Below are positions 27,197-43,197 of a stretch of 64,000 nucleotides of DNA, one piece after another. The translations under genes were made by a program, and so were the position numbers. The DNA is taken from the NCBI RefSeq assembly GCF_002174305.1, contig NZ_MIJB01000002.1, positions 124,001 through 188,000 on the forward strand, in the 5' to 3' direction. How positions within the stretch are numbered: the first letter of the stretch is position 1; each line of letters begins with the position of its first letter. This DNA comes from Aeromicrobium sp. PE09-221. Its GTDB lineage: Bacteria; Actinomycetota; Actinomycetes; Propionibacteriales; Nocardioidaceae. The notes below the pieces were generated by a model, which was given only the letters and a program-made list of their open reading frames with translations, was not told the DNA's origin and did not search any database.

Positions 27197-27680
27197 GATC
27201 GAGGAACGCCTGGCTGCCGTCGAACGGCGGCTGACCGAGCTGGAGGCGGCGCGGTCGACCTCCCCGTCGCCGTCGAGCGGCGATCTCTGGGTGCTCGACG
27301 GGCTGCGGCCGGCCGCCGAGGGTACGGAGGGCATCGTGCTCTGGGCCGGCACCGTACGGACGGCTGAGGGGCCCGTCGACTGGCAGATGGGCCGGATGGC
27401 CGATGAGCTGCTGCACGCCGACGACCTCGATATCGCGGCCGACCGGCTCGCCGCGCTCGGACACCCGGTGCGTCTGGCGCTGCTTGTGGCGGTCATCCGG
27501 GGGACTACCAAGGTCACCGACCTGGCCGAGCACCTCGAGCTCGCCTCGACCGGGCAGGTCTACCACCACATCAAGGCACTCAGTGCCGCCGGATGGCTGC
27601 GTCAGGCGGCGCGCGGCCACGTCACGGTGCCACCCGAGCGCGTCGTGCCCGTCCTCGTCGCCATGGGGGTCACGATATGA
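27192..27680 (+). CDS. ArsR/HTH-family winged-helix regulator
   Basis: A 162-residue protein. An N-terminal coiled-coil start (EERLAAVERRLTELEAAR) is followed by a winged-helix domain with LGHPVRLALLVAVIRGTTKVTDLAEHL (given in part) and VYHHIKALSAAGWLRQ, the ArsR recognition-helix pattern. No cysteine metal-site motif is present, so this is not an arsenic sensor. It overlaps the following serine hydrolase gene by 4 nt and probably regulates this operon. Confidence 0.85.
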   Translation: MTIEERLAAVERRLTELEAARSTSPSPSSGDLWVLDGLRPAAEGTEGIVLWAGTVRTAEGPVDWQMGRMADELLHADDLDIAADRLAALGHPVRLALLVAVIRGTTKVTDLAEHLELASTGQVYHHIKALSAAGWLRQAARGHVTVPPERVVPVLVAMGVTI

Positions 27681-28747: not shown

Positions 28748-29103
28748 GCACCGTCATCGTCGTGGCCCTGAGCCTCTGGCTGACTATCGAGGTGGTGTCC
28801 CTGATCAGGGCGGGTCTCGGCGCGCCGCACGCCCCCTCGCGGATGCGGCTCGCCGTGGTGGCCGTGGAGGCTGTCATGGTGGTCATCGTGACGCGGGCCC
28901 TCGTCCCCTGGAATCACCTCACGCAATGGATCTGGGTCGTCGCCGTCACCGGCACGGCCGCGGGGCTGGCGCTCGCGGCCCACCGCTGGTCCCGGCTCCC
29001 GGCGGTCCAGCCGGGTGTCAGTGCCACCAGGACGGTGGCCTCGGGGATCCAGCTCATGGTTCTCGTGGGCATCGGCGTGCTGGTCGCGTCGACATTCCGG
29101 TGA
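28744..29103 (+). CDS. Small four-helix membrane protein in the serine hydrolase operon
   Basis: A 119-residue protein with four hydrophobic helices (near 4-22, 33-50, 58-77 and 98-117) and short basic loops. I do not recognise a family. The start overlaps the serine hydrolase stop (ATGA), so it is translationally coupled. Similar regulator-hydrolase-membrane triplets resemble BlaI/BlaR-like logic only in outline; no such function is claimed. Confidence 0.7.
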   Translation: MSTVIVVALSLWLTIEVVSLIRAGLGAPHAPSRMRLAVVAVEAVMVVIVTRALVPWNHLTQWIWVVAVTGTAAGLALAAHRWSRLPAVQPGVSATRTVASGIQLMVLVGIGVLVASTFR

Positions 29104-29133
29104 GGGTGTTCGACATCGTCGTGCGACATCCGA

Positions 29134-29139
29134 TAGTGT
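29134..29139 (+). promoter_or_regulatory. Candidate -10 element for the leader ORF
   Basis: TAGTGT matches the TAnnnT pattern, with a weak TTCGAC -35 candidate 19 bp upstream. The transcript would start with a hairpin (GTCCGCAC/GTGCGGAC at 29145-29161) and then GGAGG before the small ORF at 29192. Confidence 0.5.
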
Positions 29140-29191
29140 TCCGGAGTCCGCACGGTGCGGACGTACAGATGACTCGACGGAGGTGAACCCC

Positions 29192-29281
29192 ATGGCGACG
29201 TTCTTCACGAACACGGCGGCCCGTAGCCGCAGCTTCGTCACGGTTCACCGCGCCGAGAGTCCCGTCTGTCATCGCACGTGA
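29192..29281 (+). CDS. Putative 29-aa leader peptide
   Basis: A short ORF (MATFFTNTAARSRSFVTVHR, then nine residues ending CHRT) has a good ribosome binding site, CGGAGG, 9 nt upstream. It ends 28 nt before an intrinsic terminator that separates it from the next gene. A stretch GCCGAGAG within it (29252-29259) could pair with the 5' arm of that terminator, as an antiterminator would. It is not rich in one amino acid, so what stalls the ribosome, if anything, is not obvious. It could also be an independent micro-protein. Confidence 0.5.
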   Translation: MATFFTNTAARSRSFVTVHRAESPVCHRT

Positions 29282-29309
29282 TCAGCCTTCGCTGAGCACA
29301 CGTCATCAC

Positions 29310-29345
29310 AGCCTCTCCGGCCCGAGCCGGAGAGGCTTTCTCTTT
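29310..29345 (+). terminator. Intrinsic terminator / attenuator
   Basis: AGCCTCTCCGGC (29310-29321) pairs perfectly with GCCGGAGAGGCT (29326-29337) around a 4-nt loop and is followed by TTCTCTTT. It is the most canonical rho-independent terminator in the window. It lies between a short ORF and a coding gene on the same strand, an attenuator-like position. Confidence 0.85.
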
Positions 29346-29382
29346 GTCATCCCACCCGTTTACGCAGAAAGGAGGCGCGCAC

Positions 29383-29658
29383 ATGATCACCCTGAACGAC
29401 ACCGACCAGATGCCCGCAACGATCGATTCCGACCTTTTCGACTCCCTCTCGACTCCGGCGACACCGGCCACCCCGGCCGCTCGCCACGAGGCCCGAGGGG
29501 AGGTGAATGCGATGAAGTTCCGGGAACGTCGTCGCCGTGAGCGCGACCTCGTCGAGCGGGAGCTGGATCGAGAGATCGTCATCGAGGCGGTGCGCCGCAG
29601 TCGGGCCGTCCAACGGTCGGTGTATGAACAGATCTACCGCGCGCGGTTGATGCGCTGA
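29383..29658 (+). CDS. 91-aa protein of unknown function with basic-acidic helix
   Basis: The protein has a low-complexity N-terminus (DSLSTPATPATPAARHEA) and a strongly charged C-terminal helix (KFRERRRRERDLVERELDRE, about residues 45-64). I do not recognise a family; the C-terminal helix could bind nucleic acid or form a coiled coil. The start is the ATG 9 nt after AAAGGAGG, the strongest Shine-Dalgarno sequence nearby. Expression may depend on read-through of the terminator just upstream. The next structure is the palindrome preceding eutB. Confidence 0.65.
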   Translation: MITLNDTDQMPATIDSDLFDSLSTPATPATPAARHEARGEVNAMKFRERRRRERDLVERELDREIVIEAVRRSRAVQRSVYEQIYRARLMR

Positions 29659-29682
29659 GGTGAGCCACCTCATGTCCGGCGG

Positions 29683-29724
29683 GGGCCGGCGCTTTACCTG
29701 ACCGTAAAGCGCCGGCCCTAGGCT
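29683..29724. promoter_or_regulatory. 36-bp palindrome abutting the eutB -10 element
   Basis: GGGCCGGCGCTTTAC (29683-29697) and its perfect complement (29704-29718) enclose CTGACC. The -10 hexamer TAGGCT follows at once (29719-29724), 8 nt before the eutB ATG. The palindrome occupies the -35 region, so it could be an operator or activator site. As RNA it could also terminate the upstream 91-aa gene. Confidence 0.8.
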
Positions 29725-29732
29725 GGTGGGCC

Positions 29733-31145
29733 ATGTCTCGATATCGCCAGATCCTCGCCGATCGCACCTACGAGTTCGACGGGTTGGCGGAGGTGATGGC
29801 CAAGGCCACCCCGCTGCGCTCGGGCGACGTGCTCGCCGGGTGCGCCGCGCACACCGATGCCGAGCGAGTCGCGGCACAGTGGATCCTGGCCGATCTCCCG
29901 CTGGCCACCTTCCTGACCGAGCACCTCATCGATCCCGATGTCGATGAGGTGTCGCGGCTGATCCTCGACTCGCACGATGCTGCTGCCTTCGCCGAGATCA
30001 GCACCTTCACGGTCGGCGGACTGCGGGACTGGCTGCTGGACTGTGTGACGCGTTCCGATGCTGCCACGCGGTTGAGGGAGCTCGGACCGGGACTGACGGC
30101 CGAGATGGTCGCGGCGGTCAGCAAGCTGATGCGCAATCAGGACCTGATCGCCGTGGCCCGCGCCTGCGAGGTCACCAGCCGTTTCCGCACCACCGTCGGG
30201 CAGCCGGGCCGGCTGGCGACGCGGCTGCAACCCAATCATCCCACCGATGATCCACGCGGGGTCAGCGCCGCGATCCTCGATGGACTCCTGCTCGGCGCCG
30301 GCGACGCGGTCATCGGCATCAATCCGGCCTCCGACTCGGTCCACGCGACCGGGGAGCTGCTGCGTCTGGTCGATGAGATCCGTACACGCTACGAGATCCC
30401 CACCCAGTCTTGCGTCCTCAGCCATGTGACGACCACGATCGAGCTGTGCGAGAAGGGAGCGCCGGTTGACCTCGTCTTCCAGTCCATCGCCGGAAGCCAG
30501 GCGGCGAACGAGGGATTCGGAGTCGACCTGGCGGTCCTCCAGGAGGGGATGGAGGCCGGCCGGTCGCTCGGCCGGGGGACCATCGGCGATCAGGTGATGT
30601 ACTTCGAGACCGGCCAGGGATCGGCCCTCAGCGCCGACGCCCATCGGGGCATCGGCGGTGTGCCCATCGATCAACAGACGCTGGAGACACGTGCCTATGC
30701 CGTGGCTCGCGCCTTCGACCCGTTCCTGGTCAACACGGTGGTCGGGTTCATCGGACCGGAGTACCTCTACGACGGGAAGCAGATCATGCGCGCCGGTCTG
30801 GAGGACCACTTCTGCGCCAAGCTCATGGGACTGCCCATGGGCGTCGACGTCTGCTACACCAATCACGCCGAGGCCGATCAGGACGACATGGACGCGCTGC
30901 TGACGCTCCTGGGGGTCGCAGGAGCCGCTTTCGTGATCGCGGTCCCTGGGGCCGATGACGTCATGCTGGGCTATCAGAGTCTGTCCTTCCACGACGTCCT
31001 CTACGCACGTCGGGCGCTAGGGCTGCGGCCCGCTCCCGAGTTCGAGCGGTGGCTGATCCAGCAGGGCATGGCTGACGCCGAAGGCCGGGTCCAGCCGCGG
31101 GATATCGATCACTCGGTGTTGCGCGGGCTTGGGGCGAGCGCGTGA
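29733..31145 (+). CDS. eutB: Ethanolamine ammonia-lyase large subunit
   Basis: A 470-residue TIM-barrel enzyme matching EutB in length and motifs: LMRNQDLIAVARACEV, FRTTVGQPGRLATRLQPNHP, INPASDSV, FQSIAGSQAANEGFG and GLPMGVDVCYTNHAEADQDD (shown in parts). With EutC and adenosylcobalamin it converts ethanolamine to acetaldehyde and ammonia. No other eut or microcompartment genes are present, so this is the minimal cytosolic system typical of actinobacteria. Leaderless start from TAGGCT. The stop overlaps the eutC start (GTGA). Confidence 0.95.
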   Translation: MSRYRQILADRTYEFDGLAEVMAKATPLRSGDVLAGCAAHTDAERVAAQWILADLPLATFLTEHLIDPDVDEVSRLILDSHDAAAFAEISTFTVGGLRDWLLDCVTRSDAATRLRELGPGLTAEMVAAVSKLMRNQDLIAVARACEVTSRFRTTVGQPGRLATRLQPNHPTDDPRGVSAAILDGLLLGAGDAVIGINPASDSVHATGELLRLVDEIRTRYEIPTQSCVLSHVTTTIELCEKGAPVDLVFQSIAGSQAANEGFGVDLAVLQEGMEAGRSLGRGTIGDQVMYFETGQGSALSADAHRGIGGVPIDQQTLETRAYAVARAFDPFLVNTVVGFIGPEYLYDGKQIMRAGLEDHFCAKLMGLPMGVDVCYTNHAEADQDDMDALLTLLGVAGAAFVIAVPGADDVMLGYQSLSFHDVLYARRALGLRPAPEFERWLIQQGMADAEGRVQPRDIDHSVLRGLGASA

Positions 31146-31868
31146 GCACCTGGGACCACGTGCGGACGGTCACCCAGGCGCGCATCGGGCAGCCGCGGGT
31201 CGGTGAGACGGTCAGGATCGATGAGGTGCTGCGCTTTCGGGCCGCGCACGCGGCGGCTCGCGACGCCGTCCACCTGCCACTGGAGAGCGAGAGCCTGGCT
31301 GAGCGGATCGCCTCGCTGGGAAACGAGGTAGGGGGGCGTCGTGGACAGCAGGGTGTCGGACCGCGCCGAGTTCCTTCGGCGTCCGGATCTGGGGCGAGAG
31401 CCGCGCACGCTGGCCCATATTCCCGCCGGGTCGGGAGCCGACATCGGCATCGTGGTGGCGGACGGACTGTCGACCACGGCGGTGGCAGCACACGCGGTGC
31501 CCATGATCGAGGCTCTCAACGAGGTGTTCGACAGCCGGCTCGCCATCGCGCCGGTCGTGATCGCACGTCAAGCGCGCGTCGCGATCGGTGATGCGATCGG
31601 TCACCATCTCGGGGTGACGGCGGTGCTCGTGCTCGTCGGCGAGCGGCCGGGGCTGTCGGTCGATGACAGCCTGGGGGCCTATCTGACGCACCGTCCACGT
31701 CCCGGTCGTCGCGACAGCGACCGCAACTGTGTCTCGAACATCCATCCCCCTGAGGGCCTCGGGTACCGCGCCGCGGCTCGCACCCTGGCTGCCCTGGTGG
31801 ACGGTGCCCGCACGCTCGGTGCATCCGGTGTACGTCTCAAGGACGGCTCACATTCCCTGCCCGGCTGA
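31142..31868 (+). pseudogene. eutC: Ethanolamine ammonia-lyase small subunit, frameshifted
   Basis: Two frames together make a normal EutC. The first (from GTG 31142) has RIDEVLRFRAAHAAARDAVH and the B12-side helix region. The second carries DSRVSDRAEFLRRPDLGR, GADIGIVVADGLSTTAV and RPRPGRRDSDRNCVSNIHPP. They are offset by one base at a run of six G (31331-31336). Deleting one G restores a 241-residue frame reading EVGGVVDSRV across the join. Either the gene is newly inactivated, the run slips in vivo, or it is a sequencing error. A GTG at 31341 could restart translation but would miss about 66 N-terminal residues. Confidence 0.88.
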
Positions 31869-31897
31869 GGGTCCGCGTTGACGGTAGCCTGTCAGCC

Positions 31898-32818
31898 ATG
31901 CCCAGACTCGACGTCGATGCTCTGTCCAAGTCCTATGGCACTGTGCAGGCTCTGACCGGCACCACGTTCTCGGTCGCCGCGGGGGAGGTCTTCGGCTTCG
32001 TCGGCTCCAATGGATCGGGCAAGACCACCACCATGCGCATCATCCTGGGCGTCCTGACCGCCGATGACGGCGAGGTGCGCTGGGACGGACAGCCGGTCGA
32101 CGCAGCGGTGCGTCGTCGGATCGGGTACATGCCCGAGGAGCGCGGCCTGTACCCGAAGATGAAAGTCGGCGACCAGCTCACCTATCTCGCCCGGCTCTAC
32201 GGACTCAGCGGTGCGGACGCGAAGGAGGCCATGGCCCGGTGGACCGAGCGACTCGGTGTCGCAGAGCGGGTCGACGACGAGGTCCAGAAGCTCTCCCTCG
32301 GCAATCAGCAGCGCGTGCAGCTCGCCGCGGCACTCACCCACTCGCCGGATCTCCTCGTGCTCGATGAGCCCTTCTCGGGACTCGACCCGGTCGCGGTGGA
32401 GGTCATGAGCCACGTTCTGGCCGAGGAGTCCGAGCGCGGAGCGCCGGTGCTGTTCTCCTCGCATCAGCTCGACCTCGTGGAGCGCCTGTGCGACCGGGTC
32501 GGCATCATCAAGAACGGCCGCATGGTGGCCGTCGGCACGCTCGACGAGCTGCGCCGCACCGACAAACCTCGGTGGATCATCGACGGACCACCCGGTGACG
32601 ACTGGCTCGGCGAGGTGCGGCGAGCACGGATCGTGTCGCGGGAGGGCACCCGCACGGTCGTCGAGGTCGAGGCCGACGGGGATGAGCAGCCGGTGCTGCA
32701 GGCTGCCCTGAGGCTCGGTCCGGTTCGCGAGTTCAGCCTCTCGCGTCCGTCGTTGACCGACCTGTATCGCCATGTCGTCAGCTCCGAGGACCCCGGGGAA
32801 GGGGAGGGGACCCGATGA
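31898..32818 (+). CDS. ABC-2 exporter ATPase (NatA type)
   Basis: A 306-residue ABC ATPase: Walker A GSNGSGKTT near residue 37, signature LSLGNQQRVQLAAAL near 131, Walker B LVLDEPFSGLDPVA near 153, and a DUF4162-like C-terminal domain (LRRTDKPRWIIDG to the end). Its partner permease overlaps by 4 nt. The NatA/NatB type exports sodium in Bacillus, but homologues also export drugs or peptides. TAGCCT (31885-31890) 7 nt before ATG marks a leaderless start, so this is a separate unit from eutBC. Confidence 0.9.
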   Translation: MPRLDVDALSKSYGTVQALTGTTFSVAAGEVFGFVGSNGSGKTTTMRIILGVLTADDGEVRWDGQPVDAAVRRRIGYMPEERGLYPKMKVGDQLTYLARLYGLSGADAKEAMARWTERLGVAERVDDEVQKLSLGNQQRVQLAAALTHSPDLLVLDEPFSGLDPVAVEVMSHVLAEESERGAPVLFSSHQLDLVERLCDRVGIIKNGRMVAVGTLDELRRTDKPRWIIDGPPGDDWLGEVRRARIVSREGTRTVVEVEADGDEQPVLQAALRLGPVREFSLSRPSLTDLYRHVVSSEDPGEGEGTR

Positions 32819-34011
32819 AGCAGTCAGCCTGGTCGATGATCGCGCTCGTCGCGAGCCGTGAGATCCGCACCCGCATCTACTCCAAGGTCTTCGTCCTCAC
32901 CTCGGGCCTCTTCATCGTGGCGATCGTCGGTGGCGGCGCCTTCTTCCACTTCTTCGCGCCCGATGGACAGAACGAGCAGACTGTGGGCGTCACCAGCGAG
33001 GTCACGCCCCTCGCGCTGACGATCGAGGCCGTGGGCGACGGTCTCGGCACGGACATCACGGTGAGCGAGGTGGATCGCGAGCAGGGCGAGAAGCAGGTGT
33101 CCGACGGTGACCTCGACGCGCTCGTCGACGGTCCCCTCCCGAATGTCGAGGTGGTGGTCGAGGACGAGCTCGACGGCACTCTGCGGACCGTCATCACGAC
33201 CGTGGTGCAGCAGGAGGCGCTTGGTGAGCAGATCAGCGACCTCGGCGGCGACCCCGCCGCAGTAGCCCAACAGGTCGCCGGAGCCGAACCTCAGGTGACG
33301 TCGCTCGACGGCGGCGAGGAGCGGGATCCGGCCCAGATCATCGCCGGATTCGTGTCCGGCATCCTCATCTTCATCGCCCTGATGGGCGGTGGTCAGCGTG
33401 TGGCGCAGGGGGTCGTGGAGGAGAAGGCGAGCCGGGTCGTGGAGCTGCTGCTCGCGACGATGCGTCCGTGGCAGCTGATGGCCGGCAAGGTGCTCGGCAA
33501 TATCGTCGTCGGCGTCCTCGAGGTGGGCATCATCGCCGCGGCGGCGGTGGGCACCGCGTGGGGTTTCGAGCTGCTCGACACGAGTTCGCTGGCCGTGGGA
33601 ACCGTCGCTCTCTGGGTGCTGGTGTGGTTCCTGGTCGGCTTCGTGATGTACGCGCTGGTCCTGGCGAGCCTGGCCGCGCTCGTGTCGCGTCAGGAGGACG
33701 TGGGATCGGTGATCTCGCCGGTCATCGGCATCATGATGGTGCCCTACATCATCGGTGTCTCGATCGCTCCGTGGGACCCGGAGAGCACGCTCGTCGAGAC
33801 TTTGTCGTATATCCCGTTCTGCTCGCCGTTCATCATGCCGATCCGCATCGCCCTCGGCACGGCCACGATGCCGGAGGTGCTGCTCTCGATCGGACTCTCG
33901 GTGGTGCTGATCCCGCTGCTGATCTGGCTGGCCGGGCGCATCTACTCCGGCGCCATTTTGCGCACCGGCGCCCGTGTCTCCCTCCGCCAGGCCCTCAAGG
34001 CCGACACCTGA
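32815..34011 (+). CDS. ABC-2 exporter permease (NatB type)
   Basis: A 398-residue permease. One N-terminal helix (about 24-44) is followed by a large extracytoplasmic domain (about 45-180) and then five or six helices from about 182, with QRVAQGVVEEKASRVVELLL, the NatB signature. It forms a heteromeric exporter with the overlapping ATPase. The substrate is unknown. Confidence 0.88.
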   Translation: MKQSAWSMIALVASREIRTRIYSKVFVLTSGLFIVAIVGGGAFFHFFAPDGQNEQTVGVTSEVTPLALTIEAVGDGLGTDITVSEVDREQGEKQVSDGDLDALVDGPLPNVEVVVEDELDGTLRTVITTVVQQEALGEQISDLGGDPAAVAQQVAGAEPQVTSLDGGEERDPAQIIAGFVSGILIFIALMGGGQRVAQGVVEEKASRVVELLLATMRPWQLMAGKVLGNIVVGVLEVGIIAAAAVGTAWGFELLDTSSLAVGTVALWVLVWFLVGFVMYALVLASLAALVSRQEDVGSVISPVIGIMMVPYIIGVSIAPWDPESTLVETLSYIPFCSPFIMPIRIALGTATMPEVLLSIGLSVVLIPLLIWLAGRIYSGAILRTGARVSLRQALKADT

Positions 34012-34026
34012 CCGTGAGGGTGGGGC

Positions 34027-34902
34027 TCAGCGGGCGCTGAGAGCCTCGTGGAATGCGAGGATGCGCTGTGCGTCGCGGATGTGCAGCTCCTCGACCATCT
34101 TGCCGTTGTAGGTGACGACACCCTTGCCCGCGGCCTTGGCCTCGTTGAAGGTCTCGATCATCTCGGCGGCGCGGGTGACGTCCTCCTCGGAGGGGGAGAA
34201 GGCCAGATTGGCCGGCTCGACCTGGCTCGGGTGGATGAGGGTCTTGCCGTCGAAGCCCATCTCACGGCCCTGCCGGGCCTCGGCGTCGAAGCCCTCGGCG
34301 TCCTTGACGTTGTTGTAGACGCCGTCGATGATGACCTTGCCGGCCGCGCGGACGGCAAGCAGGGTCCACGAGAGCGCTGTGAGCACGAGCGGGTTACGCC
34401 CGGGGACGTGCAGACCGAAGGTCTCGTTGACGATGTCATTGGTGCCCATGACGATGACCGTCAGGCGCTCGTGCGCGGCGGCGATCTCCTCGGCGTGGAG
34501 CAGCGCGACCGGTGTCTCGATCATCGCCCACAGCTGGGTGGAGGCCGGAGCCCCGGCCTCGTCGAGCGCCGCCACGAGCGAACGGACCTGCTCGGCGGAC
34601 TCGACCTTCGGTACGAGGATCGCGTCCGGTCCCGCCGTCGCGGCGGCGCGGATGTCGTCGTCGTGCCATTGCGTGCCGATCGAGTTGACCCGGATGGCCA
34701 GCTCACGGTGTCCGTACTCGCCCGAGCGGACGGCCGCGCAGACGTTCTCGCGGCCCTGCTCCTTGGCATCGGGGGAGACGGAGTCCTCCAGGTCGAGGAT
34801 GAGCGCATCGGCGGCGATCGTCTTGGCCTTCTCCAGGGCACGCTCGTTGGCGCCGGGCATGTAGAGGACGGAGCGGCGCGGGCGCAGGGTGGTGTCGGTC
34901 AT
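34027..34902 (-). CDS. CitE-like HpcH/HpaI family CoA-ester lyase
   Basis: A 291-residue CitE-fold protein. It has the substrate-side stretch VLYMPGANERALEKAK, metal-binding Glu and Asp in DLEDSV and MIETPVAL, and the C-terminal GFDGKTLIHPSQVEPAN. Relatives include free-standing CitE proteins and (S)-citramalyl-CoA lyases that cleave 3-hydroxy acyl-CoA esters to acetyl-CoA plus an oxo acid. No citrate lyase alpha or gamma subunit is present, so it is not classical citrate lyase. Its start is 11 nt from the stop of the upstream lyase gene with GAGGAG as RBS, so they are co-transcribed. Confidence 0.88.
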   Translation of the reverse strand: MTDTTLRPRRSVLYMPGANERALEKAKTIAADALILDLEDSVSPDAKEQGRENVCAAVRSGEYGHRELAIRVNSIGTQWHDDDIRAAATAGPDAILVPKVESAEQVRSLVAALDEAGAPASTQLWAMIETPVALLHAEEIAAAHERLTVIVMGTNDIVNETFGLHVPGRNPLVLTALSWTLLAVRAAGKVIIDGVYNNVKDAEGFDAEARQGREMGFDGKTLIHPSQVEPANLAFSPSEEDVTRAAEMIETFNEAKAAGKGVVTYNGKMVEELHIRDAQRILAFHEALSAR

Positions 34903-34912
34903 ATCGGTCTCC

Positions 34913-35977
34913 TCAGAGGTCGTAGGCCGCGGCCAGCTCGGGATCGCTGGCGGCCAGCTCGCGGGCGAGGTCCAGCATCACGATGCACTGTTTGCAGGAA
35001 GCGTCGTCCTCCATCTTGCCGTCGATCATGACGGCTCCGGAACCGTCGCCCATCGCCTCGACGACCCGCTTGGCGTGCGCGACATCCTCGGGGCTGGGGG
35101 AGAAGACCTTCTTGGCGATGTCGATCTGCACGGGGTGCAGGCTCCAGGCGCCGACGCAGCCGAGGAGGAAGGCGTTGCGGAACTGGTCCTCACAGGCCAC
35201 GACGTCCTTGATGTCTCCGAAGGGACCGTAGAAGGGGAGGATGTCGTTCATCGCGCAGGCGTCGACCATGCGCGCGATGGTGTAGTGCCAGAGGTCCTGC
35301 TGGTAGGTGGTACGTCCTTCGGTGAGGTCCTCGCCCGTGGGGTCCTGGCGCACGAGATAGCCGGGGTGACCGCCCCCGACGCGGGTGGTCTTCATCCGGC
35401 GGCTGGCGGCAAGGTCGGCCGGGCCGAGGCTGATGCCCTGCATGCGCGGGCTGGCCGCGGCGATCTGTTCGACATTGGCGACGCCCTCGGCGGTCTCGAG
35501 GATCGCGTGCACGAGGATCGGGCGGTCCAGTCCGGCGCGCGCCTCCAGCTGGGCGAGCAACCGGTCGACGTAGTGGATGTCCTGCGGTCCCTCGACCTTG
35601 GGCACCATGATGACGTCGAGCTGGTGGCCGATCTCGGTGACGAGGGTGATGAGGTCGTCGAGCACCCAGGGGGAGTCGAGGCTGTTGACGCGGGTCCAGA
35701 GCTGGGTGTCGCCGCCATGCCCGAACAGGCCGGCATTGGCCTTCGCGATGTCGACGAGGCCCTGACGCGCCGCCTCCTTCTTCTCGGTCTTGACCGCGTC
35801 CTCGAGGTTGCCCAGGAGGATGTCGACCTTGGCCGCGATGTCCGGGACCTTGGCCGCCATCTTCTCGTTGCTCGGATCGAAGAAGTGGATCATCCGGCTG
35901 GGGCGGAACGGGACATCGGTGGCGGGCGCCGGGGCGCCGACGGCGAGAGGACGGAAGAACGCTCGGGGACTACGCAC
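34913..35977 (-). CDS. Malyl-CoA / beta-methylmalyl-CoA / citramalyl-CoA lyase (Mcl type)
   Basis: A 354-residue CitE-superfamily lyase that resembles, from memory of the family, the Chloroflexus Mcl enzyme of the 3-hydroxypropionate bicycle. The features are the [11 protein letters not shown] start, [57 protein letters not shown] and [10 protein letters not shown]. The expected reactions are reversible cleavage of malyl-CoA, methylmalyl-CoA or citramalyl-CoA to acetyl- or propionyl-CoA plus glyoxylate or pyruvate. GTG start with AGAAGGG 6 nt upstream; the longer upstream frame is not coding. It sits between a dicarboxylate transporter and a second lyase. Confidence 0.85.
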
Positions 35978-36059
35978 GTTGAACCCTTCTGGAGTCGTCT
36001 GATTACCGCTCAGTATGCCCAAGTGGCTCCGCGGGCGGAGCCGGTCCCCCTCGGGAGCA

Positions 36060-37625
36060 TCACCCGATGCCGAGCAGGGAGGCCATCGCGGTGACTCCGG
36101 TGACGATGATGACGATCCCGACGAGGTCGAAGACGATGCCCGATCGCACCATCTTGGTGATCGGGACCATGCCGGTGCCGTAGACGATGGCATTCGGCGG
36201 CGTGGACACCGGCAGCATGAAGCCGAAGGAGGCACCGAAGATGGCGGCGAGCACCGGCACGGCAGGATTGACGTCGACGGCGAGTGCCAGTTGTGCGGCG
36301 ATCGGCGCGACCACCACGACGCTCGCGGTGTTGCTGGTGGTCTCGCTGATGATGACGGCGATGACGGTGGCGAGGATCGTGATGCTCAGCAGCTGGCTCG
36401 CGCCGAGGAGGTCCGACAGCGAGGTGCCCATCGTTGCGGCCAGTCCCGTGGACGAGAGCAGCCCGCCGAGGGTGATGCCGCTGCCGAAGAGGATGATCGT
36501 GCCCCAGTCGATCTTGGTCGCGTCGTTCCAGGTCAGCGTGAACGAGCGCTCTGACCAGTTCGTGGGAAGCAGGAACAGCAGGGAGGCCGCCACGATGGCG
36601 ACAGCGCCCTCGTCGAGCCGGCTCAGCGTGGCGTCGTAGAAGGAGGACTCGCCACCGGTCACGAGTCCCACGGCGCCGGGGAAGATCCAGAGGGTGACGG
36701 CGACGCCGAAGGCGATGAGGGTGTTGCGTCCTCCCGCACCCATCCGTCCGAGCTTGTCGCGCTCCTCCTTGATGTAGCCGTCGACTCCCTCGACCCGCTT
36801 CACCTCGGGACGGTTCAGGCGCACCAGCAGCAGGCACAGGACCGCGAACATCACGATGACCAGGGGGAAGGCGAGCACCATCCACTGGAAGAAGGGCACG
36901 ATGATGTCGAGCTCCTCCTCCAGATATGCCCTGCCGATGAGGTTCGGTGGGCTGCCGACGGGGGTGAGGAGCCCGCCGATGCTGGCCCCATAGGCGACCA
37001 TCAGCATGAGCGCGGTGGCGAAGTGGAGCCGCTGGGGGTCCACCTCCTCCTCGGCGTCGCGGCTGAGCGCCGAGGCGAGGAAGCCGACGATGCCGGCGGC
37101 GATCGGCATCATCATCGCCGCCGTGGCGGTGTTCGACACGAAGCCGCTCAGCAGGGCGGTGATGGCACCGAAGGCGATGATGATGCGGGTCGTCGAGCGG
37201 GCGACGCCGGGCAGGCTGAGGATGCCGAAGGCGAAGCGGCGGTCCAGGCCGTGCTTGCGCATCGCCTCGGCGATGATGAAGCCACCGATGAACACGAAGA
37301 TCGTGCTGTTGCCGAAGGCGCCGAAGACCTCCTCCGCGCCTGCGATGTCCATCATGATGGTCGCGGCCATGGCGGCCATGGCGGTGACGGGGATCGGGAT
37401 GGCCTCGCTGATCCAGTAGACGACGACCCAGGCCAGGAGGCCGGCGAGCCGCTGGGCGGGCTCGTCGAGGGGTGCGCACAGCAGATAGGTCACGATGCCG
37501 ATGACCGGTCCGGCGAAGAGGCCGATCGTGCGACGGCCGCGCTCGAAGCGCTGCTCGGCCGGACTCAGGGTCTCCTTGACCTCGTCGAAGGTGCGGTAGG
37601 TCGCCGGACGGCGCGGTTCGGACAT
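36060..37625 (-). CDS. DASS (SLC13) family dicarboxylate:sodium symporter
   Basis: A 521-residue membrane protein with about 12 helices. It has two SNT motifs, [15 protein letters not shown] near residue 141 and [17 protein letters not shown] near 429, which form the sodium and carboxylate sites of DASS/SLC13 carriers. It imports succinate, malate, fumarate, itaconate or similar diacids. It is first in an operon with two CoA-ester lyases, which points to a C4 or C5 dicarboxylate whose CoA ester is cleaved. RBS AAGGGGG precedes the ATG. Confidence 0.9.
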
Positions 37626-37684
37626 GGAATCCCCCTTGGATCGTGATGTATGTCACATCCTAAGGGGGAGTTGGCGGTGATCGG

Positions 37685-38005
37685 TCAACCGAAGGGCAGC
37701 TCGTCCTGTTCGTCGTCATCACTGGAGGAGAGGTGCCGGTGGGCCGAGAGCAGCTCGATCTCGGGCCGGTCGGCCATGAAACGCTCCACCGAGTCGAGGA
37801 CCTCGATCACATGGTGACGATCGATCGAGACGAGACTGCCGCCGATCCCGGCGCGTCGATAGAGATCGACGCTGTCGGTCTCGGCGGCAGCCAGTGCGAA
37901 ACGACGCTGCAGCTCGGCGACGATCGGCCGGACGATGCTGCGCTTCTCCTTCAGCGAATGGACATCGCCGAGGCGGATGTCGAACTCGATCCAGCCGATC
38001 CACAT
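37685..38005 (-). CDS. DUF503 family protein
   Basis: A 106-residue protein with the DUF503 signature WIGWIEFDIRLGDVHSLKEK followed by RSIVRPIVAELQRRF; the acidic C-terminal tail is SSSDDDEQDELPFG. Family members are small ferredoxin-fold proteins of unknown role, often near ribosome maturation genes, which are absent here. The ATG lies 7 nt after CAGACT (38013-38018, minus), consistent with leaderless transcription; the in-frame extension upstream is not supported. Confidence 0.85.
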   Translation of the reverse strand: MWIGWIEFDIRLGDVHSLKEKRSIVRPIVAELQRRFALAAAETDSVDLYRRAGIGGSLVSIDRHHVIEVLDSVERFMADRPEIELLSAHRHLSSSDDDEQDELPFG

Positions 38006-38111
38006 GCCCGGTAGTCTGCCATGTTCGTCAGGCCACCCAGCGCATCGTGTCAGGGACCGCGAGGGCGGCATGCGACTCGGCACTGGGCAGGGGATCTGCG
38101 AATCGTCTGCG

Positions 38112-38966
38112 TCAGCCGGCGCTGGTGAAGGTCGGGTCCTCGATGAGCGGCGGGTGCACGGGGCTCCATCCGAGAGCCTCGCGGGTCCGCGTGGAGTCGG
38201 CGATCTGGTCGAGCAGCAGCGCACCGGCGAAGTCGGCGCCCAGTCGGGCGCGGGAGGCGTCCGCGGTCTCGTGGGCGACCCTCTTGCCGAGCGCGGTGCC
38301 GAGCTCGCTCACGGTGGGGGAACCGTCATCGGTTCCGAGGTAGATCGCTCCCGCGGTGCCGTGCTGGAGGGCGAGCAGATACAGCTCGGCGAGATCGTCG
38401 ACATGGACGGTGGTCCAGTGCTGTTCGCCTCCCGGGACGAGCAGAGCGCCGGAGTCGTCGCGGGGCCCGTTCGCGAGCAGGGCGGGGATCCCCTGGCCGT
38501 GGCCGTAGACGATGCCGGGACGGATCGCGATCCCCCGTGCGGCGTCATCAAGGAGCCGGTGCTCCAAGGGCACGCGCCAGCGGGTGAGGGCCGGAGGATC
38601 GTCGGGGGAGTCCTCGACGATGGCGGTGTTGTCGCCATAGGTCCAGATGCCGCCGGTGAGGATGAAGGGCTTATCCGTGCCGGCGAAGGCCTCTATGGCG
38701 GCATCGACGACCGCGGTGTTCATCGCGGGGTCGGTGCCGTCGCCCGCAGCTGCGGCATGGACGGCGGCATCGACACCGCGTAGAGACGCGACCAGCCAGT
38801 CCTCATCGCGGAGATCACCGAGCAGGCCGGTCGCGCCAGCCTCGGTGACGGCATGTTCCGATCTCTGCGATCGCACGACCGCGAGCACCTCGTGGCCGGC
38901 CTCGCGCAGGCGGCGCAGTACGGCCGCTCCGATGAAACCGGTTCCTCCGGTGAGCAAGACGCGCAT
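38112..38966 (-). CDS. NAD-dependent epimerase/dehydratase family protein
   Basis: A 284-residue extended-SDR protein. The dinucleotide motif GGTGFIGAAVLRRL is at residues 7-20. The usual YxxxK is not present in its standard place: a tyrosine in GGIWTYGDN and later residues (VYGHG) occupy this region, so it may be an NAD(P)H-binding reductase or a binding-only homologue. The substrate is unknown. It follows the tetR gene by 28 nt on the same strand and is probably under its control. Confidence 0.83.
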   Translation of the reverse strand: MRVLLTGGTGFIGAAVLRRLREAGHEVLAVVRSQRSEHAVTEAGATGLLGDLRDEDWLVASLRGVDAAVHAAAAGDGTDPAMNTAVVDAAIEAFAGTDKPFILTGGIWTYGDNTAIVEDSPDDPPALTRWRVPLEHRLLDDAARGIAIRPGIVYGHGQGIPALLANGPRDDSGALLVPGGEQHWTTVHVDDLAELYLLALQHGTAGAIYLGTDDGSPTVSELGTALGKRVAHETADASRARLGADFAGALLLDQIADSTRTREALGWSPVHPPLIEDPTFTSAG

Positions 38967-38994
38967 GTCCGGTTAACGTGGTCAGGTCGTCGTG

Positions 38995-39525
38995 CTATTC
39001 CGGCACGATGAGCCGGCCCATGACGATCGCGACATCGCGCAGGGGAGTGACGCTACGCTCCACGCGGGCCTGCATGATCGCGCCCTCGAAGGCGCTCACG
39101 AGCACTCCCGCGAGCAGCTCGGGATCGGCGACGCCGTCGAGGCGCAGGGCGGAGGCCAGGTCCTCGCGCCAGGTGGCGAACACCTCCCGAGCGGCCCGTG
39201 TGCTGGCGGGACAATCCGGACCGGCCAACGCGGCCGCGGCGACCGGGCAGCCGATGTCGTAGTCGTGCTCGATCAGTGTGCGCTCCCACCACGCGAGGAG
39301 TGCATCGACGTGACCCCCCTGGGCGACCCGCCGGACATGCTCACCGGCCGCCTGAGTCGCGGCGGCGACGAGCTCGTCCTTGCCGTCGGGGAAGTGGTGA
39401 TAGATCGATTGACGGGCGACTCCCGACTCCCGGAGCACGTCGGCGATGCCGGTGCCGTGGACCCCGTGTCGACGCAGCAGGTCGATCGTGCTGGTCAGCA
39501 GGCGCTGTCGAACCGGTGCGGCCAT
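38995..39525 (-). CDS. TetR family regulator of the epimerase/thioesterase divergon
   Basis: A 176-residue TetR/LmrA-YxaF-like protein. The HTH is visible as TGIADVLRESGVARQSIYHH, followed by FPDGKDELV, and the C-terminal domain has DIGCPVAAAALAG. A perfect operator-like palindrome lies 12 nt upstream of its start, in the spacer it shares with the divergent thioesterase gene, so it very likely represses itself, the epimerase and the thioesterase. Confidence 0.9.
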   Translation of the reverse strand: MAAPVRQRLLTSTIDLLRRHGVHGTGIADVLRESGVARQSIYHHFPDGKDELVAAATQAAGEHVRRVAQGGHVDALLAWWERTLIEHDYDIGCPVAAAALAGPDCPASTRAAREVFATWREDLASALRLDGVADPELLAGVLVSAFEGAIMQARVERSVTPLRDVAIVMGRLIVPE

Positions 39526-39536
39526 GATCCCTCCCC

Positions 39537-39552
39537 TAGACCGAACGGTCTA
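39537..39552. promoter_or_regulatory. TetR operator palindrome
   Basis: TAGACCGAACGGTCTA is a perfect inverted repeat (7-bp arms, AA centre) of the common TetR operator form. It abuts TATATT (39551-39556), a good -10 for the thioesterase gene, and lies upstream of tetR on the other strand. Confidence 0.88.
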
Positions 39553-39585
39553 TATTGGCCTCAGTCTATCCGAGAGGACCCCGTG

Positions 39586-40035
39586 ATGACCACGACCGAT
39601 CCCCGCGAGATGTCCGGTCTGGAGCTCCTGCGCTATGCCACGGCGTTGCCGGCGGCCGAGCGCGCACCGATCATCGGCGATCTGTTCAAGTTCTCGATCG
39701 ACGAGATCGAGCACGGCCGGGTCGTGTTCTCCTTGCCGTCCGACCCGGCCTTCGCGAATCCGCTCGGCTCGCTGCACGGTGGAACCTGCGCCACGCTGCT
39801 GGACTCGGTGATGGGTTGCGCAGTGCACACGACGCTCGACGCCGGGGTGGGCTACGGGACGCTGGAGCTCAAGGTCAACTACATCCGCACCGTGCCCGTC
39901 GACGGCCGGAGACTGAGCGGTACCGGCACCACGATCCATGTGGGACGTCAGGTCGCGACGGCCGAGGGGAAGGTCGTGGACGCCGAGGGCCGTCTCGTTG
40001 CCCACGCGACCACGACCTGCATGATCTACCGCTAG
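39586..40035 (+). CDS. PaaI-type hotdog thioesterase
   Basis: A 149-residue hotdog-fold protein. The active-site loop NPLGSLHGGTCATLLDSVMG follows the PaaI pattern (HGG, then Asp/Ser). It should hydrolyse an acyl-CoA, perhaps aromatic or short-chain, to free CoA. ATG chosen 8 nt after GAGAGG; a GTG one codon upstream is also possible. The stop shares the bases CTAG with the stop of the convergent amidase gene. Confidence 0.88.
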   Translation: MTTTDPREMSGLELLRYATALPAAERAPIIGDLFKFSIDEIEHGRVVFSLPSDPAFANPLGSLHGGTCATLLDSVMGCAVHTTLDAGVGYGTLELKVNYIRTVPVDGRRLSGTGTTIHVGRQVATAEGKVVDAEGRLVAHATTTCMIYR

Positions 40036-41141
40036 AGCATGGCGTCGAGGTCGGCGCGCAGGCCGTTGCCGGCATCGAGCCAGTCCTGGCCGTACTGGCC
40101 GGGGCATGCGGTCGCGAGCCAGTTGCGGTGGCCGGAGACGCGGAACTCGGTCTGCCCGTTGAGGGCGAGTGTCTGCAGCGGGCGCAGGCCGTAGTCGTCG
40201 AGTCGCCAGGCGATGAGTCGGGTAGTGGCATCGCGCAGTGTGTCCCACTCGGTGTTCCAGATGTTCGAGCTCTCGAAATTGCCCATCATCGCGACGCCGG
40301 TGGTGTTGTCGTTGACCTCGCGTACGCCCGCGTGGGCGCCGCGGACGTGGTCATCGAGGCTGCCGGCGCGTCCCTCGAAGATCTGCCCGTACTTGTCGAC
40401 CAGGAAGTTGTAACCGAGATCGCACCAGTCGTTGGTGACCATGTGCATCGTCTGATAGGAGCGGACGATGCCAGCGGACTCTTCCTTGGAGTAGGAATTG
40501 GCTCCCGCCGTGTGATGCAGGACAACGCCCTGCATCGAGCCGATGGTGGCATCGCAGGATTCCGCGGGCGCGGCGCCCCAGCCGCTGCGCGGAATGATGT
40601 CGGGTTGACCGGCCGCATACGACTGCGCGCCGGGTGGCTCGGATGACTCGCCCGGATCGACCGTAACGATCCTCAGTCCCTCGGGCGCGGCCTGCCCCGA
40701 GCCGAGGCGGATGGCGACGGCATCGGCGGCGTCGCTGGACCACATCGGCTCGGTCGAACGCGGCGCGTCCTCACCATCGGTCCGTTCGAGCGGCTGCCAT
40801 TCGCCCCACCCGTCGCCGGTACGGAGGCGCAGTTCCAGCCCGGCCTCCGGATCGAACTCGCCCTCCCAGGTCACGGCTGCCATGTGGAAGGCGCTGAGCG
40901 CGGTCTGTTCGATCTCGGTGGGTTCGCCGGAGTAGGCCGTCAGGCCGGCTCCGAGGTCGGTCTGCTCGACGGAGACATCGTCGCCGAAGCGGGCATCGGT
41001 GAGCGGCTCCGCAGCGGGCGGGCCGGGGGCTGTGGGCTCGGCCGCTGCCGGCCCGGCGGCGACGAATGGTGCGGTCAGCGCCACGGCCGAGGCGGCGATG
41101 GCGAAGGTCGTGGGCGAGAGGCGAGATCGGGCAGGACGCAT
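40032..41141 (-). CDS. Secreted N-acetylmuramoyl-L-alanine amidase (PGRP domain)
   Basis: A 369-residue exported protein with a signal peptide (about residues 1-34, cleavage after AAA). Its middle region resembles the acidic beta-domain of actinobacterial amidases (WEGEFDPEAGLELRLRTGDG). A C-terminal PGRP/amidase_2 domain has zinc ligands in VVLHHTAG, SGHRNW and TACPGQYG. It cleaves the lactyl-L-Ala bond of peptidoglycan during wall turnover or division. The start is placed at the Met beginning RPARSRLSPTTFA, which gives a proper signal peptide. Confidence 0.9.
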   Translation of the reverse strand: MRPARSRLSPTTFAIAASAVALTAPFVAAGPAAAEPTAPGPPAAEPLTDARFGDDVSVEQTDLGAGLTAYSGEPTEIEQTALSAFHMAAVTWEGEFDPEAGLELRLRTGDGWGEWQPLERTDGEDAPRSTEPMWSSDAADAVAIRLGSGQAAPEGLRIVTVDPGESSEPPGAQSYAAGQPDIIPRSGWGAAPAESCDATIGSMQGVVLHHTAGANSYSKEESAGIVRSYQTMHMVTNDWCDLGYNFLVDKYGQIFEGRAGSLDDHVRGAHAGVREVNDNTTGVAMMGNFESSNIWNTEWDTLRDATTRLIAWRLDDYGLRPLQTLALNGQTEFRVSGHRNWLATACPGQYGQDWLDAGNGLRADLDAML

Positions 41142-41219
41142 GTCTTGAGTCCACAATGTCCGCGTGCTCCTGTCCACGCGAGGATCGGTGTGACCCTGCG
41201 ACACGCCTCGGCTCCCGGA

Positions 41220-41507
41220 TCAAATTCGTGCCGTCCCGAGACGGGTTCGTCCGTCTACTCGATCGGTGCCGACGGCCCGTGCCGCGCATGGGCTCCCGAA
41301 CACGCTGAACCAGCCGTTGCTCGATGCGATCCGCCACGCCTCGTCGGCCAGCAGTCGATGCCCGAACTCCGGTTCATCTCGGTGCGCGTCGGTGAGGGGA
41401 TTCGCCAGCCACCGGTAGTAAGGCTGGCGGGAGAGCTTGAGCACCCGACACGACCGCTCGGCGGATCGCGTGGCGGACGACCGGTGACGCCCACGTGCGC
41501 AGGTCAC
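41220..41507 (-). pseudogene. IS3-family transposase (OrfB) remnant
   Basis: A 95-codon frame contains CRVLKLSRQPYYRWLANPLT, then DAHRDEPEFGHRLLADEAWR and NGWFSVFG, which is the N-terminal HTH part of IS3-group OrfB. About ten residues are missing in the middle compared with typical OrfB, the DDE catalytic core is absent, and the end runs into unrelated sequence. No inverted repeats were seen. This is a dead insertion-sequence fragment just upstream of the amidase gene. Confidence 0.8.
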
Positions 41508-41616
41508 TCATGCTTGCTGCCTCTCGTGTTGGTCGGCGCGGTTTTTCCTGTTCATCGTGCAGGGGGCGTCGAGTTGGGGTAGGAAGGGTGGAAAGTCGTA
41601 TCTGGAGGAATCAGTC

Positions 41617-41823
41617 ATGTTATGGATTCGTCGCATTGCAACCGTCCTCACGATCATCGGCGGCCTGAATTGGGGCCTCGTGGGCGCTTTCGAGTGGAAT
41701 CTCGTCGATGAGCTTTTTGGCGAGGGAAGCGCGCTCTCGCGGACCGTATACGTGCTCGTCGGCATTTCCGCAGTCATCGCGATCTGGAATCTCTTCGTGG
41801 TGGATGAGCGCGAGCGCGCCTAG
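41617..41823 (+). CDS. DUF378 family small membrane protein
   Basis: A 68-residue protein with two helices and the DUF378 hallmark TIIGGLNWGLVGAFEWNLVD near residues 11-30, plus GISAVIAIWNLF. Function is unknown. RBS GGAGG lies 8 nt upstream of the ATG. The codon use is less GC-biased than its neighbours and it sits between two decayed mobile-element genes, so it may be part of acquired DNA. Confidence 0.85.
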   Translation: MLWIRRIATVLTIIGGLNWGLVGAFEWNLVDELFGEGSALSRTVYVLVGISAVIAIWNLFVVDERERA

Positions 41824-41889
41824 CTGCTCACGCGTCGGCGGGTAGCCGGTCGGCTCGTCACTCATCGGACTCCGCCTTTTCGGTGATAG

Positions 41890-42157
41890 GTCGTCCCGCG
41901 CCGGGCGGAAGTTGCACCAGAGGACCTTGGTGCGGTCGCCGGCGCCGTTGTAGGCCTGTCCTGTCCATCCGGTGATCTCATGGTCGTGCCGCCCGGTCGG
42001 GCGGAGCTGCCCGCCGCGCCCCTGCGAGAGCTTCACCCAGGTGCGTCGGGCGCGTTCCAGGTCGTCCACGTCATCGGGGATCGGTCAGGCTCGAGGTTCT
42101 GTGGGCGTTCGCGGAGCACCGCCACCAGACCATCAGGTCACGGTCGAGGTCATTGAA
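41890..42157 (-). pseudogene. Decayed D12-class DNA adenine methylase
   Basis: In one frame the minus strand reads FNDLDRDLMVWWR, the start of D12/Dam-type methylases after their first glycine motif. In the next frame it reads DDVDDLERARRTWVKLSQGR and then, after an apparent internal deletion, DRTKVLWCNF, resembling the C-terminal ERTEVLWSN of actinobacterial enzymes. The DPPY catalytic motif is gone. Frame changes and deletion mark it as a pseudogene. Such methylases are common in prophages, and it lies directly 3' of tRNA-Lys. The rest of 41824-42199 holds nothing else I can support apart from the hairpin at 42165. Confidence 0.6.
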
Positions 42158-42164
42158 ACGGGAA

Positions 42165-42190
42165 CGGCCCCGGTCGATGGACCGGGGCCG
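42165..42190 (-). terminator. Hairpin terminator of tRNA-Lys
   Basis: Perfect 11-bp arms CGGCCCCGGTC (42165-42175) and GACCGGGGCCG (42180-42190) enclose a 4-nt loop, 9 nt downstream of the tRNA 3' end. Read on the minus strand it is followed by TTCCCGTTTC, a weak T-tract. Confidence 0.75.
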
Positions 42191-42199
42191 GATGGAGAG

Positions 42200-42272
<73 letters not shown>

Positions 42273-42330
42273 AGTGCGCTGTGCGCGAGATAGAACACTA
42301 CCGCATCGCGCCAACGCCATGCCAATCGGG

Positions 42331-43197
42331 TCAGCCCGTGTGATCGTCCAGCCACGCGAGGATGTCGCGGGTCACTTCGTCGCGATTGGTCTCGTTCAGG
42401 ATCTCGTGTCGGGCACCGGGATAGAGGATGACGGTGACGTCCTGGAGACCTGCCTCGCGATAGCGGGAGCCGATCAGCTCGATGAGGTCACCGCCACCCG
42501 CGAGGGGGTCGTCGGAGCCCGATGCGATGAGCAGCGGCAGGTCCGGGCGGATGTGTCCGAGCACCTCGGGATCGGCCAGGTGTGATCCACCGGCGAAGAG
42601 CGCGGGCACCGTCGTCTCAGGCAGATCGAAGCCGCACAGCGGGTCCGCCACGTAGAGGTCGACCTCCGCCTCGTCACGGCTCAGCCACTCGTAGCCGGTG
42701 CGGTGCTCGAAGGCGGCATTGAAGACGCTGAGGTCACCCGCCGGAGCACCGGCCATCCCGGCAGCGATCACGTCGATCGCGGTCGACCCCGACAGGATGA
42801 CCCCGTCGTACAGGTCCGAGCGTTCGACGAGAACGTGCTGGCCGGCGAAGGAGCCCATCGAATGGCCGAAGAGGAAGACCGGGAGCCCCGTGTACTCCGC
42901 ACGGATGCCCTCACCGAGCTGGACGACATCGCGCCACAGCCCTTCGAAGCCCGCCTCGCCGAAGTCACCGGGCACATCGGCGATGGTGCGTCCGTGTCCG
43001 CGGTGATCGGAGCCGACCACATGGAAGCCGGCGGCGTTGAGCGCCTCGGCGAATCGCCCGTAGCGGGCCACGTGTTCGGCGAGTCCGTGGGAGATCTGCA
43101 CCACACCGCGGGGCCGGTCGGCCCCCGTGGTCCACGTGGTGGTGGCGACCCGCAGGCCGTCCTGATCGGAGAGAAAGCTGGAGGTCAATGGGCTCAC
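42331..43197 (-). CDS. Alpha/beta hydrolase, monoacylglycerol lipase-like
   Basis: A 288-residue serine hydrolase of the Hydrolase_4 type. It has SHGLAEHVARYGRFAEAL and GSDHRGHGRT near the oxyanion site, nucleophile motif FGHSMGS near residue 113, the catalytic Asp in ASGSDDPLAGG, and His in YPGARHEILNE. It probably hydrolyses monoacylglycerols or lysophospholipids, which fits its neighbour glpD, the next step for released glycerol. The GTG start lies 6 nt after TACTTT (43204-43209, minus), indicating a leaderless transcript; the long upstream frame overlaps glpD and is rejected. Confidence 0.88.
   Translation of the reverse strand: MSPLTSSFLSDQDGLRVATTTWTTGADRPRGVVQISHGLAEHVARYGRFAEALNAAGFHVVGSDHRGHGRTIADVPGDFGEAGFEGLWRDVVQLGEGIRAEYTGLPVFLFGHSMGSFAGQHVLVERSDLYDGVILSGSTAIDVIAAGMAGAPAGDLSVFNAAFEHRTGYEWLSRDEAEVDLYVADPLCGFDLPETTVPALFAGGSHLADPEVLGHIRPDLPLLIASGSDDPLAGGGDLIELIGSRYREAGLQDVTVILYPGARHEILNETNRDEVTRDILAWLDDHTG

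Follow-up and report, generated by a model that had tools for sequence, protein, structure and literature searches.

The ethylmalonyl-CoA (EMC) pathway, in which acetyl-coenzyme A (acetyl-CoA) is assimilated, is known from Rhodobacter sphaeroides and Paracoccus, where a lyase (Mcl1) and a thioesterase (Mcl2) reportedly act together as an apparent malate synthase. A malyl-CoA lyase is also part of the 3-hydroxypropionate bi-cycle of Chloroflexus aurantiacus, whose enzymes include malonyl-CoA reductase, propionyl-CoA synthase and mesaconyl-CoA C1-C4 transferase and which, to our knowledge, uses no thioesterase. Here we describe two adjacent genes (35977-34027, minus strand) for a lyase, Mcl, and a CitE-like protein, P0002, in a window of 64,000 nucleotides of Aeromicrobium sp. 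PE09-221 (positions 124001-188000 of contig C40 of genome G000, a 4.0 Mb draft of 111 contigs rated 99.99% complete). The two genes quite probably form a unit of Mcl and malyl-CoA thioesterase that completes the EMC pathway. The pathway itself and the split between lyase and thioesterase are known from Rhodobacter; what varies here is the Chloroflexus type of the lyase and its arrangement with the thioesterase as a two-gene unit, present in many actinobacteria, and the novelty is modest. Such an actinobacterial pair was not met in a literature search that left subscription papers mostly outside its scope, which does not establish its absence from print.

Mcl (P0001; 34913-35977, minus strand; 354 amino acids, GTG start) and P0002 (34027-34902, minus strand; 291 amino acids, ATG start) both match the family PF03328 (HpcH_HpaI) and belong, like CLYBL, CitE and RipC, to the CitE-like superfamily. 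The best PDB matches of Mcl are 4l7z (474 bits, E 3e-141, with 214 identical positions across query residues 6-354, counted from the match line) and 6kin (470 bits, E 8e-140), which we take to be the Roseiflexus enzyme, and the match to 4l9y, with 189 bits, lies far below that to 4l7z. The structures 4L7Z and 4L9Y are the malyl-CoA lyases of Chloroflexus and Rhodobacter, respectively (PMC3832036). The Asn58 and catalytic residue set of the MCLC subtype, as described in that paper, is complete in Mcl, and the equivalents of Asn58 (in place of Asp), Glu60, Asp61, Arg92, Glu157, Asp184 and Asp318 are present in all of 80 related loci, which are the best 80 of at least 576 confirmed relatives and are biased to Aeromicrobium and Pseudonocardiales. 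The nearest named relative of Mcl among the matches listed, from Aeromicrobium piscarium, is 96% identical. Judged by these sequences, Mcl is a malyl-CoA lyase of the Chloroflexus (MCLC) subtype, as the original prediction had proposed. It resembles the C. aurantiacus enzyme in subtype, length and active-site residues, and it differs from Rhodobacter Mcl1 in its subtype; unlike the C. aurantiacus enzyme, it occurs together with crotonyl-CoA carboxylase/reductase (Ccr), ethylmalonyl-CoA mutase (Ecm) and a thioesterase-like partner.

The second protein had been taken for a shorter, CitE-like lyase; it is indeed shorter and CitE-like, but its active site points to another function. Members of the CitE-like superfamily keep an Asp at the place of Asp299 of the Rhodobacter enzyme; Glu stands there in a single group, that of the R. 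sphaeroides malyl-CoA thioesterase (PMC3832036). P0002 has Glu271 at the position of the lyase Asp, and Glu is found in all 79 homologues readable there, the contig of the 80th ending earlier. We aligned 29 chosen sequences and built a tree from them, namely 14 of the 443 plasmid records matching P0002, eight of the 80 loci, L112, the L110 lyase and five proteins from the window's own genome. The 20 Glu-bearing sequences form a single clade with an SH-like support of 0.91, several inner nodes being weak; the clade includes the protein of a Ruegeria mcl2-like locus, while the Mcl2 proteins of R. sphaeroides and Paracoccus lie outside the tree sample. In all 20 an Asn precedes the metal-binding Asp, a place taken elsewhere by Ala (two Mcl proteins) or by Glu, Gly or Ser (the other seven). 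The lyase Asp is kept in three further CitE-like proteins of the source genome (two further superfamily matches, on C73 and C48, being left out of this count) and, unlike P0002, in CLYBL (5vxc) and a plasmid CitE. Because P0002 carries, in place of the lyase Asp, the Glu that marks the malyl-CoA thioesterases, it is probably a hydrolase, a (3S)-malyl-CoA thioesterase of the Mcl2 type, rather than a lyase. Citrate lyase CitE was considered for both lyase-like proteins and rejected, since they reach 110.2 and 205.1 bits with TIGR01588 against a cut-off of 443.4 and since the genes beside P0002 in the window are Mcl and an ABC transporter gene.

The comparison with Rhodobacterales agrees with this assignment. 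A CoA ester lyase encoded on the megaplasmid of Ruegeria sp. TM1040 is 47% identical to P0002, and its gene is followed by NnrU, DUF1737 and, three genes off, a MaoC dehydratase. The spacing equals that of Paracoccus denitrificans, in which mcl-2 is Pden_0563 and mch is Pden_0566 (PMC10370305), and we infer that the two mcl2-mch loci are orthologous. DUF1737 also adjoins a P0002-like gene in two rhizobial relatives. Apparent pairs of CoA ester lyase genes are probably made of one lyase and one hydrolase. The structural paper leaves open why CitE-like lyases do not hydrolyse thioesters (PMC3832036), and the pair would offer a clean test of whether replacing Asp by Glu contributes to the conversion of a lyase scaffold to a thioesterase.

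The order of the two genes, which are separated by 10 nt, is kept in 79 of the 80 loci, more often than chance would give; at the remaining one (L036) the contig breaks off within the second gene, of whose product the 69 N-terminal residues are readable. In this the locus differs from Paracoccus, where mcl-1 (Pden_0799) and mcl-2 (Pden_0563) lie apart (PMC10370305), while the proposed division of labour between the two proteins and the Glu signature of the second are shared with the Mcl1 and Mcl2 of Rhodobacter and Paracoccus. No other family group occurs in more than 36 of the 80 loci.

Gene presence, lyase subtype, residues, conservation of the pair, the further pathway genes and the key enzymes that stay below thresholds are read from sequence, and from them we infer the enzyme activities, their direction, the co-transcription of the two genes and the physiological role of the pair as follows. 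Two molecules of acetyl-CoA would give crotonyl-CoA, which Ccr would convert to ethylmalonyl-CoA, Ecm to methylsuccinyl-CoA, methylsuccinyl-CoA dehydrogenase (Mcd) to mesaconyl-CoA and mesaconyl-CoA hydratase (Mch) to beta-methylmalyl-CoA. Mcl would cleave the latter to glyoxylate and propionyl-CoA and then condense glyoxylate with another acetyl-CoA to malyl-CoA. Hydrolysis of malyl-CoA to malate by P0002 would draw the reversible aldol reaction in the forward direction. Mcl and the thioesterase would thus jointly stand in for malate synthase. The expectation that the two proteins act in sequence finds its place here, as a lyase followed by a thioesterase.

Candidates for the other steps are encoded elsewhere in the genome, on three contigs when the pair is included (C40, C44 and C106). 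Three Ccr genes exceed the family cut-off, the best with 597 bits, and the stretch around the best one also holds Ecm, 3-hydroxybutyryl-CoA dehydrogenase, thiolase and MeaB. The other two Ccr genes, L009 (C51:199881-201056) and L010 (C91:60871-62049), are on contigs other than that of Ecm, and a methylmalonyl-CoA mutase-like gene is found on C49. The mesaconyl-CoA hydratase that the original prediction suggested searching for is present on C44 (P0004); it shares 68% identity with the Ruegeria MaoC, exceeds the cut-off of PF19315 (64 bits against 26.5) and matches two PDB entries, 4e3e (E 1e-135) and, with E 1e-127, 8hgn, which bears the name beta-methylmalyl-CoA dehydratase. A candidate Mcd (P0007) lies about 8 kb from P0004 on the same contig. 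Ccr, Ecm and P0007 have their counterparts, with 80, 75 and 74% identity, in one operon of the actinobacterial genome G039, whose order is Ccr, Ecm, a Rhodobacter-like lyase, a small MaoC and an acyl-CoA dehydrogenase. This order matches the ccr1-ecm-mml-mch-mcd operon that Streptomyces tsukubaensis requires to grow on acetate (PMC4606968), with the counterpart of P0007 at the place of mcd. Unlike the operon of G039, whose lyase is 36% identical to Mcl and whose MaoC is small, the steps in the Aeromicrobium genome are dispersed.

Malate synthase gave no match at E 1e-10 in the source genome, a point in which, together with the Mch, the organism resembles R. sphaeroides and Paracoccus. The sole matches there to isocitrate lyase and glyoxylate carboligase remain below the cut-offs (58 bits against 275.9 for TIGR01346, and 382 bits against 711.2, respectively). 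A glyoxylate carboligase match of E 1e-100 or better occurs in all 19 genomes searched and exceeds the cut-off in G048 alone. Within a search that did not extend to amino acid routes or to the beta-hydroxyaspartate cycle, the glyoxylate of the pathway therefore had no other apparent way to C4 acids. The proposed scheme predicts a way for actinobacteria to grow on acetate when searches find no isocitrate lyase and no malate synthase in their genomes.

The distribution of these genes was analysed in 158 genomes of the class. Mcl matches at E 1e-20 occur in 106 genomes, and the Chloroflexus subtype (at least 65% identity, E 2e-143 or better) in 19; the 87 genomes with a best match of at most 41% (E 3e-49 or weaker) were not counted as this subtype, and three of the 19 (G009, G078 and G088) have both kinds. 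The thioesterase, counted at 58% identity to P0002 or more (which leaves out G043, G047 and G116, at 38-39%), is present in 18 of the 19 subtype genomes and in two of the 139 others (G038 and G066). It adjoins Mcl in 17 of the 19, is on another contig in G122 and is missing from G009. In this last genome the Chloroflexus-type Mcl (65%) stands beside a Rhodobacter-like lyase (38%) on the opposite strand (C28:3440-5629), and no thioesterase match was obtained at E 1e-45. Of the 19 genomes, 17 have Ecm (E 1e-200) and eight the P0004-type Mch, against 51 and four of the 139; in G053 and G085 this Mch lies at most 4 kb from a Rhodobacter-like Mcl. Malate synthase was not found in ten of the subtype genomes and in 50 of the others, and all ten possess both Ecm and the thioesterase. 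Isocitrate lyase, scored with TIGR01346 on 21 chosen genomes, exceeds the cut-off in two of the 19 (G026 and G122); a scan of the 158 genomes with PF00463 (E 1e-60) was not used, as it was too strict, the model splits ordinary enzymes and the Corynebacterium control was negative. The gene pair would be a simple genomic marker for this variant of the EMC pathway.

Several observations weigh against the assignment of the pair to the EMC pathway. The Glu-for-Asp exchange of P0002 marks a subgroup and is no proof of hydrolysis. The Mcd candidate is ambiguous: P0007 matches FadE3 with 392 bits and 6es9 with 271, generic acyl-CoA dehydrogenases match it at least as well as 6es9, and it has no N-terminal extension like that of the Paracoccus Mcd (PMC5798300). 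Homologues of Ccr, Ecm and P0004 were not found in the 80 loci, within flanks of up to 10 kb, and the source genome is a draft in 111 pieces. Across the class, malate synthase is also present in nine of the 19 subtype genomes, and its absence is not significantly linked to the subtype (p = 0.21; Fisher values overstate independence here because the 158 genomes are related to each other). The P0004-type Mch is missing at E 1e-40 from 11 of the 19, and 17 of the 27 genomes with Ecm and without malate synthase lack a Chloroflexus-type Mcl. Moreover, G022 and G088 combine the pair with malate synthase and show no Ecm match at E 1e-200 (seven candidates scored in each), and G026 has the pair together with Ecm, malate synthase and isocitrate lyase. 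The persistence of the pair in these three genomes would be explained if the adjacent lyase and thioesterase were a portable bipartite malate synthase built on a trifunctional Chloroflexus-type lyase, the two proteins perhaps being physically associated, that also served the assimilation of glyoxylate with propionyl-CoA or the cleavage of citramalyl-CoA; we regard this broader role as rather unlikely.

In 13 of the 80 loci the region downstream of the pair contains a homologue of P0007 (at least 70% identity), with homologues of a stress protein and of an MgtE-like protein; on C44 of the source genome an MgtE-like gene lies about 1 kb from P0007, and a stress protein gene adjoins Mch, about 8 kb off. 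These arrangements suggest an older cluster from which the pair would have parted in Aeromicrobium.

The three genes at 34027-37625 had been read as one operon, and their open reading frames and families are as predicted, all three being on the minus strand. The gaps that had been given as 11-82 nt measure 82 nt between carrier and Mcl, which agrees, and 10 nt between Mcl and P0002. The third gene (36060-37625, minus strand; 521 amino acids, ATG start) encodes a sodium-coupled anion symporter of the DASS type, with 297.2 bits for TIGR00785 against a cut-off of 198.6 and with VcINDY and SLC13 transporters as PDB relatives. A genuine operon of all three genes, with the carrier supplying C4-dicarboxylates and the pair balancing glyoxylate and malate with them, would agree with the common strand, the short gaps and the same gene order in A. 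piscarium. The carrier, however, adjoins Mcl in one of the 80 loci and is not beside the pair in the other 79, and the 82-nt gap contains a conserved motif, CATACTG (36011-36017, minus strand), 40 nt upstream of the Mcl start. Within 200 bases upstream of Mcl, the motif is found in the window and at every one of the 17 Aeromicrobium-like loci among the 80 (some of them metagenome-assembled genomes), of which 16 have no adjoining carrier; the other 63 loci lack it in this region. Its distance from the aligned Mcl start ranges from 12 to 83 nt and is mostly near 40, and its surroundings vary. With the 18 sites upstream of Mcl included, the two strands of 734 kb contain 22 copies, a density of 0.006 per 200 bases, so the motif is rare in such GC-rich DNA. 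In sequence it resembles a -10 element, and it may be part of a promoter or a regulator site. The position of the motif after the carrier gene suggests that a transcript of the pair probably need not include the carrier gene. The carrier, being beside Mcl in a single locus of the 80 and separated from it by this motif, is probably an accessory neighbour and no conserved part of the unit. The three-gene operon is thus improbable, and the claim that the carrier belongs to it was not confirmed.

In the role originally suggested for the locus, itaconate, citramalate or mesaconate would be taken up and degraded: the DASS carrier would import the acid, a CoA-transferase encoded elsewhere would activate it, and citramalyl-CoA would be split by the lyases into acetyl-CoA and pyruvate. 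The dicarboxylate-type carrier next door fits such a role, and the Chloroflexus enzyme of the same subtype as Mcl also cleaves (S)-citramalyl-CoA (PMC3832036), so that the present Mcl may do so by analogy. Yet the two lyase-like proteins reach 124.6 and 161.8 bits with the RipC equivalog of NCBIfam, which has a cut-off of 375, and, as with CitE, stay below it; P0002 has the Glu of the thioesterases, and the carrier has the sporadic distribution just described. No CoA-transferase lies in the unit, an absence that the original prediction had stated correctly. The activation from elsewhere that it called for is not required if the EMC pathway, with its genes elsewhere in the genome, produces the substrate as a CoA ester. 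We therefore find this role unsupported and hold it to be an improbable explanation. A CitE-like gene of the same genome, L004 at locus L021 (7733-13752 of this locus, on contig C54), would fit such a role better. It keeps the lyase Asp and adjoins a class III CoA-transferase-like gene that reaches no NCBIfam cut-off; a TRAP carrier subunit (dctM, over the cut-off) lies near it, and a ligase and an enoyl-CoA hydratase were assigned by eye. L021 is a better candidate than the Mcl pair for the uptake and cleavage of organic acids.

Participation in the 3-hydroxypropionate bi-cycle, or in its second half from glyoxylate and propionyl-CoA to pyruvate and acetyl-CoA, would use a trifunctional Mcl twice and would agree with the Mcl subtype. 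The PDB entries matched by Mch, 4e3e and 8hgn, are presumably Chloroflexus proteins, and a class III CoA-transferase-like gene weakly matches 2-methylfumaryl-CoA isomerase, with 85.6 bits against a cut-off of 725. As the Mch is 68% identical to that of Ruegeria, however, it gives no pointer to the bi-cycle, and both the Ecm and Ccr of the genome and the thioesterase in the pair speak against it; from these genes we judge this the least probable of the explanations considered. The pair of lyase and thioesterase at the end of the EMC pathway remains the explanation that we prefer.

Some further features of the window were recorded. A GC-rich inverted repeat past the DASS stop codon (36025-36042, minus strand) has no T run and, according to its fold and to the comparison, is poorly kept in the A. 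piscarium locus, which makes it a doubtful signal; a terminator scan of the locus returned no terminator-like site, and a promoter scan returned a single site on the other strand. An Rfam search of 28000-43000 gave one tRNA. A TetR-family regulator is encoded at 38995-39525 (minus strand); its match to AcuR, a regulator that responds to acrylate, is weak (39.5 bits, cut-off 247). On the plus strand, a PF00144 beta-lactamase/esterase family protein (27593-28747; 130 bits) is encoded upstream of genes for ethanolamine ammonia-lyase (29733-31868), of which EutB has 470 amino acids and EutC is split over two overlapping open reading frames in different frames, with its start in 31142-31591 and the rest in 31341-31868, which suggests a frame break or an error of assembly. 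Acetyl-CoA derived from ethanolamine would enter the EMC pathway.

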